Of a stretch of 64,000 nt of DNA, positions 4,978 through 8,918 are shown piece by piece. The stretch spans positions 1,984,001-2,048,000 of the forward strand of contig NZ_AP022582.1 in the NCBI RefSeq assembly GCF_010731595.1. The letters are read 5' to 3'. Source of the stretch: Mycobacterium seoulense (lineage in GTDB: Bacteria; Actinomycetota; Actinomycetes; Mycobacteriales; Mycobacteriaceae). Each line of letters opens with the position of its first letter. Positions within the stretch are counted from its first letter, which is position 1. Below the pieces are notes generated by a model, which worked only from the letters and a program-made list of their open reading frames with translations, did no database searches and was not told the origin of the DNA. The position numbers and the translations under genes are program-made.

Positions 4978-6155
4978 CGGGGCACACCCGGTGTCACAAC
5001 GGGGCCCGGCGCCGCGGGCTGCGGCACGAGCACCGGAGCGACGGGAGCGACGGGAGCGGCGGGGACGATCCCTTGGGGAACCGCGGGCGCGCGTTGCACC
5101 GGAACCGGCACCTCCGCGGGTAACGGTGCGGGCACCTGCCCGGGCGGCGGAATGGGCAAGCCGCCCAGCGGGATCGGCACCTCGGCGGGCACCGGGGCGA
5201 GCGCGGGTCCCGGCGAGGGCGCGGGCAGCCCCGGTACCGGCGCACCCGGCGCGGGCAGGGCACCCGGCGCCTGCCCGAGGGCCGGCGCGCCCGGCAGGCC
5301 CGGCAGCTGGGGTCCGGCCGGTGCCAGGTGCTGGCCGCCCAGCGTCGACGATCCGTCCGGAGCGCGCAACAGCGCCTCGGGTCCCGAGCGCGCCGGCGGC
5401 GCCGCCACCGGGTCGGGTTGCACCCGGACCGGAACCTCCGCGGGAGGCGCCGGCGGCGCCACGGGCTGCGGCGGACCCTGCTCGGGGAGCTTGCTGTTCA
5501 GCGGCGGGGGCGGCACCCCGTCGGCCGGCTTGGGTGTGCCGACCACCACCCAGTTCCCGGACGGGTCCTGGACCAGATGCGCGGTGTCGCGCGTCGGGAT
5601 CATGCCCTGCTTGCGGGCCGCCTCGGCCAGCGCCGGCGCCGATTCCGCCTCGCGCACATCGCGTTCCAGCGCCTCCTTCTGCTGTTGCAGCAGCCGGGTC
5701 TTCTCCCGCGCGTGGCTCAACTTATACGAGCGCTCGGCGGAGTCCGTGGACAACCACAGCGTCAGGCCCAGCCCGACGCCGAGCGCGCCGATGACGAGCA
5801 CGACAAAGGGGACCTTGCTCGCCAGAGTGCGGGGCCGCAGATCGATCGCGGCCAGCCGGGCCGCCAAACGCTCACTCAGGCGAGGGCGAATAACTTTGGG
5901 CGCCTTGGCTTTCCGCGCCTTGGCGCGGGCCTTGGCCTGGCTGGTACTCTTGGGCCGCGCCGGCCGCTCGACCGGCCGGGCGATGGGACTGGTCTGCGGT
6001 CCGGACTTGGGCGCGCGGCTCTCGCGGGTGGGCGCCGAGGTCCGCCCGGGCCGGGGCCGTCGCACGGGGCCGGGATCGGCGGCCGAGCGCCTGCTCCGCC
6101 GGGCGGAACCGTCGCGTCCGCCGCGACGATTCGGCGTCTCCCGCTTTGCTTTCAT
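4974..6155 (-). CDS. Proline-rich FtsL-like septum-forming membrane protein (Rv2164c type)
   Basis: This gene sits in the ftsL position of the dcw cluster, between rsmH and pbpB. The 393 residues show a basic, R/P-rich cytoplasmic N terminus of about 130 residues, a single membrane segment ([20 protein letters not shown]), a short coiled coil rich in K/E/Q/R that matches the FtsL leucine-zipper region, and a tail of about 190 residues dominated by Pro, Ala and Val. FtsL proteins are normally near 100 residues, so the long Pro-rich periplasmic tail is an actinobacterial addition that may cross or contact the cell wall. The role as the FtsL partner of FtsB/FtsQ and PbpB is inferred from topology and position. 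It overlaps its neighbours by 4 bp on both sides. Confidence 0.85.
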
Positions 6156-7342
6156 GCGTCGCCCTTTCCGGTTGCCTGCTGGACCCGTTGCACAGCTCGT
6201 AGCCGCACCGCCGCGCTGCGGGGATTGCGTTCCACCTCGGCGGCGTCCGCACGCTCGGCGCCGTGGGTCAGCGACCGGAATAGCGGCTCGTGGCCGGGGA
6301 GTTCGACGGGCAGGTCCACCGGGGTACGCGAGGCGACCGCATCGGCGAACAACCGTTTGACGATCCGGTCTTCCAGCGATTGATAGGCCAGCACCACCAT
6401 GCGTCCACCGACGGCGAGCGCGTCCAGACCGGCCGGGATCGCGCCGCGCAACGAATCCAGTTCGTCGTTGACGGCGATCCGCAGGGCCTGGAAGGTCCGC
6501 TTGGCCGGATGCCCCCCGGTGCGCCGGGCGGGGGCCGGAATCGCCTGGTAGAGCAGCGCTACCAACTCCGCGGTCGACGTGAAGGGGGTGCGGGCGCGCT
6601 GGCGCACGATCTGTGTCGCGATGCGGCGCGCGAACCGTTCTTCGCCGTAGCGGTGCAGGATGTCGGCCAGCGCCGCCTCGTCGTAGGTGTTGAGGATGTC
6701 GGCCGCCGTCAAGGGCGACTCGGGATCCATCCGCATGTCCAGCGGCGCGTCCTGGGCGTAGGCGAAGCCCCGCTCGGCGCGGTCGAGCTGCATCGAAGAC
6801 ACCCCGAGGTCGAACAGCATCCCGTCAACCGATCCGGCTGTACCGTAACCGGATTCGGCCAGTGCCGCGGCGATGCCGTCGTAGCGGGTGTGCACCAGCG
6901 TGACCCGGTCGGCGAAAGGCGCCAGCCGGGCCCGGGCAATTTCCAGCGCGCTGGGATCGCGGTCGAGTCCGATCAGCCGCAGCCCCGGCAGGTCGGTCAG
7001 GAACCGTTCGGCATGCCCGCCGGCGCCGAGGGTGGCGTCGAGGAGGACCGCACCCGCGCCGTCGGCGTGGTTGCGGGTCAGCGCCGGGGTGAGCAGTTCG
7101 ACGCAGCGGTCCAGCAGGACGGGCACATGCCCGAAGTCCGGTGAATCGTCAACCACCGCAACACCTCCCCGGGTCGGGCCGAATGCCCCTGACCCCTCGG
7201 CGGCCCGGAGGGCCGGCGCCCTTGCATCGAGGTCCCTGTCCGAAGGCACGAACCTGGCGTTGGGGAAGTACGCCAGGGTCGGTTCGGGCAGAGGCCACGT
7301 TGCACGGGCATGCGCCTCAGATGATGTCGCCGAGTGCTTCAT
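6152..7342 (-). CDS. rsmH: 16S rRNA (cytosine-1402-N4)-methyltransferase RsmH (MraW)
   Basis: SAM-dependent methyltransferase that modifies C1402 of 16S rRNA in the ribosomal P site. Family signatures are visible: [15 protein letters not shown], the SAM-binding [33 protein letters not shown], and the C-terminal [13 protein letters not shown]. The ATG at 7342 gives 396 residues, the length I recall for the M. tuberculosis protein, and overlaps the mraZ end by 26 bp. A longer frame reaches an ATG at 7402, preceded by GGAG, but that would overlap mraZ by 86 bp, so I prefer 7342. Mycobacterial RsmH has an extra N-terminal segment before the methyltransferase fold, and it is present here. Confidence 0.93.
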
Positions 7343-7748
7343 CGCTTGCCGCGGAGAAGTTCTCTTCGTGGGTCTGCTGGTAGTCCTGCCATGCCTGCGC
7401 ATCCCAGATCTCCAGGTAGTCGACCGCTCCGATCACCACGCAATCCTTGGAGAGGTTGGCGTAGCGGCGGTGGTCGGCCGACAACGTGATACGTCCCTGC
7501 GCGTCGGGATGCTGCTCGTCGGTGCCGGCGGCGAGGTTGCGCAGAAACGCACGGGCGTCGGGGTTGCTGCGGGAGGCCTTGCTCGCCCGGCGCGCGAGCT
7601 GCTCGAATTCCCCCCGCGGGTAGACGGCGAGGCTGTGGTCTTGGCTCTTGGTGACCATCAACCCCCCTGCCAGTGCGTCGCGGAACTTGGCGGGCAATGT
7701 CAGCCGCCCCTTGTCGTCGAGTTTGGGCGTGTAGGTGCCGAGAAACAC
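7317..7748 (-). CDS. mraZ: Transcriptional regulator MraZ
   Basis: AbrB-like DNA-binding protein of the nucleoid and first gene of the dcw operon. In E. coli MraZ represses its own operon by binding TGGGN repeats. The 143 residues contain two MraZ domains: the first begins [21 protein letters not shown] with the conserved DxKGR, and the second carries [13 protein letters not shown]. The GTG start at 7748 is preceded by GGAGGTGA at ideal spacing and yields exactly the usual mycobacterial length. An in-frame GTG at 7763 lies upstream of that ribosome-binding site and is less likely. A ladder of TGGGG boxes lies 47–71 bp upstream (7795–7819), fitting autoregulation. Confidence 0.96.
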
Positions 7749-7784: not shown

Positions 7785-7819
7785 AGCCACCATACCCCAC
7801 AATCCCCCACTTCGCCCCA
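7785..7819 (-). promoter_or_regulatory. MraZ-box array in the mraZ leader/promoter
   Basis: On the minus strand three TGGGG pentamers (7815–7819, 7805–7809, 7795–7799) are spaced exactly 10 bp apart, that is, with 5-nt spacers. A degenerate fourth copy (TGGCT, 7785–7789) continues the phase. This is the architecture described for E. coli MraZ operators (TGGGN with 5-nt spacers). A TAACTT hexamer at 7848–7853 could be the −10 element, which would place the boxes just downstream of the transcription start. The functional assignment is inference from the family; the repeat geometry is seen directly. Confidence 0.8.
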
Positions 7820-7961
7820 TTCCTGGAGTGTCGCGGCGTCGTTTTCCAAGTTACCTGCCACGTCCGGCCGCCCACACCCCCGGACGAAGCGTCCGGTGCT
7901 CACGCGGGACGCCCCGACAATCAGGTGAAAACTGCACTTCACAGCGCCTCGGAGCGGTGCG

Positions 7962-8029
7962 TGGGGCGAAGTGGGGGGCCTCAGTGGGGCCCGGTGGGGC
8001 TCAAGTCCTGCCTCGCAGCTCGGTTGGGG
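7962..8029 (+). promoter_or_regulatory. Second, oppositely oriented MraZ-box-like array
   Basis: Five TGGGG pentamers lie on the plus strand at 7962, 7972, 7985, 7995 and 8025. The first pair and the second pair each have a 10-bp period, and the last copy is 30 bp after the fourth and so in phase with it. The first pair shares TGGGGCGAAGTGGGGG with the minus-strand array at 7804–7819, so the two arrays form an inverted arrangement about 150 bp apart. No recognisable plus-strand gene follows within 880 bp. It may be an auxiliary operator that lets MraZ oligomers bridge the promoter; function is inferred. Confidence 0.55.
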
Positions 8030-8143: not shown

Positions 8144-8170
8144 ACGGGATAGCCGATATGGCTATCCCGT
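8144..8170 (-). terminator. Intrinsic terminator after the DUF3040 gene
   Basis: A perfect 11-bp stem (ACGGGATAGCC, 8144–8154, with its complement at 8160–8170) encloses a 5-nt loop. On the minus strand it is followed by TTTTC. It lies 17 bp beyond the stop of the DUF3040 gene and upstream of the mraZ control region. A hairpin plus T-tract is uncommon in mycobacteria and makes this a good intrinsic terminator insulating mraZ from upstream read-through. Confidence 0.82.
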
Positions 8171-8186: not shown

Positions 8187-8591
8187 CTAGTCGTCGAAGC
8201 GGCGACGAAACCGGTCTTCCATACGGCTGGTGAACGATCCCCCGCCACCCTTGGCGCGGCGCTGGCGCACCGACCCGGGCGCCGATCCTGGGTGGTCGGG
8301 CCGGCCGGACAACCGGGGACCCGTGATGGCGAACACCACGCCGCCGAACATCACGATGAATCCGAAGACGCTGAGAATCGGGAAGTTTCCGATCATGGTC
8401 GCTTTGAAGGCCACGCCGGAAACCAACATTGCCAGTCCGATGACGAACAGCGCCGCGCCCTGCAGGCGGCGGCGCGCGGTGGGTGCACGGAACCCTCCGC
8501 CGCGGACGCTCGACGCGAATTTGGGATCTTCGGCGTAGAGAGCGCTCTCGATCTGATCGAGCATCCGCTGCTCATGATCGGAGAGTGGCAT
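8187..8591 (-). CDS. DUF3040 membrane protein (Rv2169c type)
   Basis: A 134-residue protein beginning MPLSDHEQRMLDQIE, the hallmark start of DUF3040 proteins, followed by a soluble stretch and two adjacent membrane segments (AALFVIGLAMLVSGVAF and FPILSVFGFIVMFGGVVFAI). The C-terminal tail is basic and Gly/Ser-rich. The ATG at 8591 is preceded by GGAGG at good spacing and matches the mycobacterial length; an earlier in-frame start at 8636 lacks such a site. The role is unknown; the family is widespread in Actinobacteria, often near division genes. It is probably a single-gene transcript ended by the terminator at 8144–8170. Confidence 0.88.
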   Translation of the reverse strand: MPLSDHEQRMLDQIESALYAEDPKFASSVRGGGFRAPTARRRLQGAALFVIGLAMLVSGVAFKATMIGNFPILSVFGFIVMFGGVVFAITGPRLSGRPDHPGSAPGSVRQRRAKGGGGSFTSRMEDRFRRRFDD

Positions 8592-8918
8592 TCGTCCCTC
8601 CTTGCCGACAGTCTGGCGCGTAACCATCGATAGCACGCGGATGTCCCGTTGCGGGGCAACTAATTGAATGATACGAGGTCATTCTGCGCCATACCACTGG
8701 TTCGGTGGCGATTCTATCCCGGCCGCGGCCCCGCCCCCAGCCGAGCCGGAACGGCCGTGCGCTACAACCGGCTTCCGCCCGTGGTGGCTCGTGGGTTCGT
8801 TGCCGCGACCGCCCGTCAACCATCCTCACCCGGGTCCGATAATGGCGGTGAGGGCTGGGGGCGCGCGAAACCCCGGCGCACAGCAACACCCGGGCACGGA
8901 CGAGGAGGACACCGCGAG
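8592..8918. promoter_or_regulatory. 327-bp divergent intergenic region
   Basis: The region lies between the divergent DUF3040 and GNAT genes. On the minus strand a TATCAT hexamer (8669–8674) could be the −10 for the DUF3040 gene, and it sits inside a GAATGA/TCATTC inverted repeat (8666–8684). On the plus strand GATAAT (8838–8843) could serve the GNAT–lppM transcript. Both are motif-level guesses. An open frame continues upstream of the GNAT start through this region but shows no resemblance to the family. Confidence 0.45.

Follow-up and report, generated by a model that had tools for sequence, protein, structure and literature searches.

Two inverted arrays of MraZ-type boxes upstream of the mycobacterial division cluster

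Organization of the mraZ locus

We analysed a 64,000-nucleotide window of the Mycobacterium seoulense genome (contig NZ_AP022582.1, positions 1,984,001 to 2,048,000), and coordinates below are those of this window, the whole stretch of DNA under analysis, unless a genome position is named. The features at the head of the division cluster are as follows.

6152..7402, minus strand: open frame of mraW/rsmH, the second cluster gene (Pfam PF01795, residues 90-406)
7210-7313, minus strand: mraW RNA (Rfam RF01746, 78.7 bits)
7317..7748, minus strand: mraZ (Pfam MraZ PF02381), GTG start at 7748 with GGGAGG at 7761-7756 ahead
7789..7794, minus strand: candidate -10 hexamer TATGGT (TAnnnT), abutting the last proximal box
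7795-7799, 7805-7809 and 7815-7819, minus strand: proximal MraZ-type array, three TGGGG boxes in 10-bp steps
7828..7832, minus strand: GACAC, at -33 from the last proximal box
7928..7941, minus strand: middle conserved element TGAAGTGCAGTTTT (genus consensus cTGAacTGCGgTTTT), between the two arrays
7962..7999, plus strand: distal inverted array, TGGGG at 7962, 7972, 7985 and 7995, forming two 10-bp pairs
8025..8029, plus strand: fifth, outlying distal TGGGG box, 30 bp beyond the previous box
8146..8168, minus strand: terminator-like hairpin GGGATAGCC-ATATC-GGCTATCCC, then GTTTT, found by eye 3' of the DUF3040 gene
8187..8636, minus strand: DUF3040 gene (Pfam PF11239), upstream of mraZ and on the same strand

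The product of mraZ was identified as MraZ because it matches the Pfam family in two stretches and also matches PDB MraZ entries (1n0e, 9qlr, 9sx6, 9qlg and others), with alignments to their chains that span residues 1-129 and take in both the D-x-K-x-R and the D-x-x-x-R stretch; the closest relatives of the gene are in Mycobacterium records. The true start of mraW/rsmH probably lies inside its open frame. The mraW RNA, located just behind the mraZ stop and ahead of the mraW methyltransferase domain, was the only Rfam match in the window to reach the gathering score, and is possibly a second layer of cluster control. Rfam returned no match on the arrays, and at lax settings gave two chance-level matches (E 2.7 and 3.3), both inside the DUF3040 gene. 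Of 80 named loci, 77 have this gene in the same orientation as mraZ, none has it in the opposite one, and three gave no hit. Among 100 short loci from other genera, orders and families, 29 also contained a piece of it, counted regardless of strand. Both arrays sit between the terminator-like hairpin (8168–8146) and mraZ.

Upstream regions of relatives

Three sources supplied the upstream regions: the 80 top-ranking named records, the 30 top-ranking genus loci, and places picked from longer lists at the genus (60), family (40), order (20) and class (40) levels, mostly one per genus or family. From 231 regions we retained 201 (142 genus, 39 family and 20 order) and dropped 30 as near-duplicates or shorter than 330 bases. 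All 80 named records were assigned to the genus group, although some are titled Mycolicibacterium, Mycolicibacter or Mycobacteriaceae. Spacing counts were anchored on TGGGN-TAnnnT, so that anchored regions have a -10 by construction, and the 7 of 20 order regions that lacked the anchor were excluded from later counts (order n = 13). Relatives share ancestry, so genome counts do not represent independent events, and correction for this was attempted only in the tree-based spacer analyses.

The proximal array is part of the core promoter

The sequence-only reading had placed three minus-strand TGGGG pentamers 10 bp apart upstream of mraZ, at 7815, 7805 and 7795, and these coordinates are exact (TGGGGcgaagTGGGGgattgTGGGG at 7819–7795 on the minus strand). 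The array is built into the core promoter, a point absent from that reading, and transcription is expected to start a few bases 3' of TATGGT. Across the 201 regions, TGGGG ran directly into TAnnnT in 190 of 568 occurrences within the last 170 bases before the start codon but in 0 of 124 occurrences farther upstream (an unanchored count). Of the upstream regions, 133/142 in the genus, 27/39 in the family and 6/20 in the order carried a forward TGGG[AG] pair with a 10-bp step close to the start. A TGG at -20, the third promoter box, characterizes the genus: it occurs in 139/142 genus regions but in 3/39 family regions. In other genera a TTGA(A/C)-like -35 was often seen by eye 5' of the boxes, which then occupy the spacer between -35 and -10. 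Measured from the last promoter box, GACAC stood at exactly -33 in 53 of the 142 genus regions and occurred three times in total within -45 to -20 over the 39 family regions; it is reported as the WhiA motif in Streptomyces venezuelae (PMC3781837, consulted in part).

A distal array in inverted orientation

The five plus-strand TGGGG boxes between 7962 and 8029, which the same reading had described as a second set facing the other way, are likewise exactly where it put them, and four of them form the two 10-bp pairs, with successive steps of 10, 13, 10 and 30 bp. Two other records, named Mycobacterium colombiense and Mycolicibacterium vulneris, have the outlying box at an unchanged position. 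Among successive reversed-box spacings of up to 45 bp in relatives, 10 bp accounted for 228 of 396, and the next commonest was 13 bp (55). The E. coli MraZ operator rule is TGGGN boxes with 5-nt spacers, and both arrays consist of direct repeats of this type upstream of mraZ. The second array is inverted and remote from the promoter, and the two share an MraZ-type box at the MraZ-type 10-bp step.

Similarity between the arrays extends to the bases next to the box. With TGGG itself being the selection, distal boxes in the genus were preceded by G in 98% and followed by G in 98% of cases; promoter boxes in the genus were preceded by G in 62% and by A in 35%, and followed by G in 96%; and promoter boxes in the family were preceded by G in 100% and followed by G in 93%. 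GTGGGG is therefore a core common to distal boxes and most promoter boxes, although the flanks of distal boxes are otherwise looser and less A-rich. None of the 441 distal boxes in the genus ran into TAnnnT. The distal array is likely, with rather high confidence, to be a binding site of MraZ. An extra reversed box, at -84 to -90 relative to the last promoter box, occurs in other genera of the family (21/39 regions) and was also found in 5/13 order and 4/142 genus regions. Some of the other-genus loci carry farther reversed pairs besides this box.

The pentamer is scarce in the surrounding DNA, with 116 occurrences of TGGGG in the window compared to a shuffle mean of 194. In the 5.53-Mb, one-contig genome, TGGGG-N5-TGGGG had 10 sites, of which 4 fell inside 205 bp at this locus, two per strand. 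A backward-read control pattern had 18 sites, indicating that TGGGG-N5-TGGGG is not enriched genome-wide. Chance is nevertheless a poor account of the arrays, given this clustering of 4 of 10 sites, the rarity of TGGGG in the window and a recurrence in relatives far above shuffles (see below). The most promoter-core-like of the 10 sites, at genome position 267781, was considered as an MraZ target and is taken as a chance occurrence, being inside a 398-codon open reading frame.

Conservation of the inverted pair

We searched the distal region of relatives for the reversed pair [CT]CCCA-N5-[CT]CCCA and found it in 131/142 genus, 22/39 family and 8/20 order regions. The forward pair, which served as the other-strand control, occurred there in 5, 2 and 1 regions, and dinucleotide shuffles gave means of 0.5, 0.1 and 0.0 for the reversed pair. 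Both arrays were present in 126/142 genus, 20/39 family and 1/20 order regions, so that the phasing of the pentamers, on whose presence in close relatives the sequence-only reading had staked its claim, is kept there. Among the 40 class-level loci, for which slightly wider bounds were used, 8 had the forward pair, 4 the reversed distal pair and 1 both, and co-occurrence of the arrays is accordingly rare at the order and class levels (1/20 and 1/40). In a whole-genome scan, the inverted double array (gap 116–146) matched in at least 76 of 118 genus genomes, while the backward control matched in none; among the matches listed, it adjoined mraZ in 24 of the 24 genomes compared with mraZ coordinates. 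The distal pair was absent from 11 of the 142 genus regions, including those of M. leprae, M. lepromatosis and M. uberis, which indicates that the distal array is dispensable in some lineages. In M. leprae and M. lepromatosis the middle promoter box is altered too.

The core shared by the two arrays had also been pointed out from the sequence. It is exact in this window, where TGGGGCGAAGTGGGGG at 7819-7804 (minus strand) and at 7962-7977 (plus strand) forms a perfect 16-nt inverted repeat, but it is not kept among relatives: the arrays shared a spacer in 8 of the 131 genus regions with a distal pair, compared to a mean of 6.3 when partners were permuted. This repeat owes its presence largely to coincidence in the one genome analysed. 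Because no covariation links the spacers of one array to those of the other, base pairing between the arrays is not the conserved feature; the kept features are the boxes, the 10-bp step and the orientation.

A conserved element between the arrays

The regular expression TGAnnTG..TTT detected the middle element, which is absent from the sequence-only reading, in 85/142 genus, 6/39 family and 0/13 order regions. A matrix scored above the 99% single-base shuffle score in 107/142 genus, 11/39 family and 1/13 order regions, the genus figure being partly circular because the matrix was made from genus hits of the regular-expression type. Genome-wide, the element had 2 exact and 12 one-mismatch places compared to 5 for the backward control, and the other exact copy lies at genome position 835560. 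Inspection of the 13 other genome places as a possible regulon yielded nothing informative. A further regulator probably binds the element and would aid or oppose a bridge between the arrays.

Spacing and helical phase

The distance from the nearest distal pair to the last promoter box was 142–143, 151–155, 162–166, 173–178, 185–187 or 196–200 in 128 of the 161 regions that have a distal pair, though the loss of single boxes from a 10-bp array could itself yield stepped distances. At periods of 10.5 and 11, phasing of the nearest pair reached R 0.60-0.72 in the genus (n = 131) and was weak in the family (R 0.36-0.43, n = 24). The distance from the middle element to the promoter, which is unaffected by box loss, was 117-120, 129-132 or 140-143 in 102 of 107 genus cases. 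The best-fit period was nearer 11 than 10.5 bp, and 103 of 105 element distances fell within 2 bp of an 11-bp grid that was picked after seeing the data; the element hits at 232 and 234, both in the genus, were left out of the grid and control comparison.

On a tree of 77 loci, we inferred 19 changes in spacer length, ten of which were at least 4 bp (9, 10, 10, 11, 11, 11, 12, 13, 18 and 21 bp), and a looser element score cut gave a similar set. These changes departed from uniform sizes (P = 0.0008-0.002) and, compared to the step sizes of a control spacer between the last box and the start codon, gave P = 0.04 at 10.5 bp to P = 0.11 at 11 bp. The control spacer itself had 30 changes, 18 of them large, and was enriched near 10-12 bp (P = 0.01-0.02 against uniform sizes). 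Its lengths in relatives cluster at 53-55, 65-66 and 77-78, which calls for caution in arguing from phase. Because the control spacer is partly phased too and phasing in the family is weak, the evidence for helical phasing between the arrays is suggestive.

A proposed remote auxiliary operator and competing explanations

We favour, with a probability of about 0.6, the interpretation that the distal array serves as an auxiliary MraZ operator at a distance, cooperating with the promoter array, most likely via a bridged or looped MraZ complex. The main operator would lie inside the dcw core promoter and the inverted auxiliary operator ~140 bp upstream, such that MraZ, the product of the first gene, would repress its own promoter by blocking RNA polymerase from the promoter boxes. 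The subunits of one oligomer, or of two touching oligomers, would fill both promoter and distal boxes while the DNA between the arrays is bent or looped. MraZ forms rings, and a ring that is polar and reads direct repeats could grip two inverted arrays if the intervening DNA bends back; with the arrays inverted, both arms would be read by one and the same polar face of the oligomer. Occupancy of the distal array would raise local occupancy and make repression steep. The locus has what a looping pair consists of, two copies of one site with one of them remote, and bridging of the two arrays by MraZ is somewhat more probable than its absence.

The best of the competing explanations, unlikely in our estimate, is a distal MraZ site that acts independently of the promoter complex, for instance as a roadblock that stops DUF3040 transcripts from reading through, or as a local MraZ reservoir. 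Such a role is consistent with the same-strand position of the upstream gene in 77/80 loci and with the placement of the distal array between the terminator-like hairpin and the promoter, and the phasing evidence for contact is not decisive. An independent platform, however, needs neither a fixed inversion, which we observed as 131 reversed versus 5 forward pairs in 142 genus regions, nor preferred distances.

It is considerably less probable that the distal boxes are bound by a different regulator or activator that recognizes G-rich DNA. Their less A-rich flanks, the further conserved element beside them and the reported binding of MtrA to the mraZ promoter in Dietzia (PMC9602371, consulted in part) would fit such a protein, whereas the GTGGGG core and 10-bp step are identical to those of the promoter boxes. 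We give still less credence to G-runs working as G-quadruplexes, as described for the mraZ promoter of Staphylococcus aureus in a study, seen in part, that reports conserved motifs of this kind in mraZ promoters (PMC11796246). The distal array has four GGGG runs, and a quadruplex pattern with loops of up to 12 occurred in 76/142 genus and 21/39 family distal regions. With loops of up to 7, however, the pattern dropped to 29/142 genus and 15/39 family distal regions and to 8/142 and 1/39 promoter regions, such that the conserved set of four G-runs with short loops expected of a quadruplex promoter element was not found. Box pairs with a 10-bp step were far commoner (131/142 distal and 133/142 promoter regions in the genus), and a quadruplex can do without the leading T and the 10-bp spacing.

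Two further explanations are very improbable. Pairing of the arrays through the 16-mer, as a cruciform or in RNA, carried by a long leader for which UpsM of Rhodobacter sphaeroides is the model (PMC5089854, consulted in part), draws on the perfect inverted repeat of this window but conflicts with the lack of covariation between array spacers (8/131 versus 6.3 permuted), with the position of the distal array upstream of the predicted transcription start and with the missing Rfam match at the arrays. A divergent promoter or small RNA with the distal array as its operator would explain why this array faces away from mraZ, but no distal box out of 441 in the genus is joined to TAnnnT and the DUF3040 gene is opposite in 0 of 80 loci (77 with a hit), which together argue against a mirror promoter, and Rfam gave nothing above the gathering score nearby, only chance-level matches (E about 3).

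The auxiliary-operator interpretation can be taken further, to a tentative model that we hold to be possible but doubtful. In mycobacteria and their relatives, an enhancer-like switch would operate in which one MraZ ring, or a pair of rings, clamps the inverted arrays and loops out DNA with a binding site for a second regulator. Division would be timed jointly by this factor and MraZ, and the switch would be ancestral to the family, with its loop length altered in whole helical turns. As a regulator, MraZ is conserved very widely among bacteria, and conserved inverted polar arrays would give a reason for its many-subunit ring, namely gripping two DNA segments at once. The middle element points to a further regulator of the mycobacterial division cluster with its site between the arrays.

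Comparison with known operators

A single promoter-near array is the usual arrangement of MraZ operators, and the MraZ boxes of E. coli reportedly form one array, bound by MraZ. The locus described here resembles the E. coli operator in its short G-rich direct repeats in 10-bp steps upstream of mraZ and differs from it by the additional array, inverted and remote. Given this second array and the reversed pair in 131/142 genus regions, we consider the arrangement a variant of the MraZ operator. We found no description of a second, inverted MraZ array in the literature searched, which left subscription papers mostly outside, and its novelty is unproven.

The lac, gal and ara systems of E. coli are repressed by looping between main and remote auxiliary operators. 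Likeness to these systems lies in the occurrence of the same operator at and away from the promoter, and helical-phase spacing matters in them. Their operators are palindromes for a dimer or tetramer, whereas the mycobacterial arrays are polar and would serve a many-subunit protein, and the requirement for phase is only suggestive here.

Among other MraZ systems, the protein is described as a self-repressor in E. coli and a cluster repressor in M. genitalium, and Mollicutes sites as AAAGTG[T/G] direct repeats, in the portion consulted of PMC8475190. The portion consulted of PMC7761207 calls MraZ an octameric toroid, gives four 7-nt repeats with 3-nt spacers for Burkholderia cenocepacia, and places the E. 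coli and B. cenocepacia repeats 3' of the -10, whereas the boxes described here enter the -10 from upstream. Like the arrays of M. seoulense, the Mollicutes and B. cenocepacia sites are, by these accounts, direct repeats with a GTG core, with a 10-bp step in Burkholderia. The same portions describe one array and mention no inverted remote array, whereas the mycobacterial locus has two arrays, one at the promoter and one inverted and remote.
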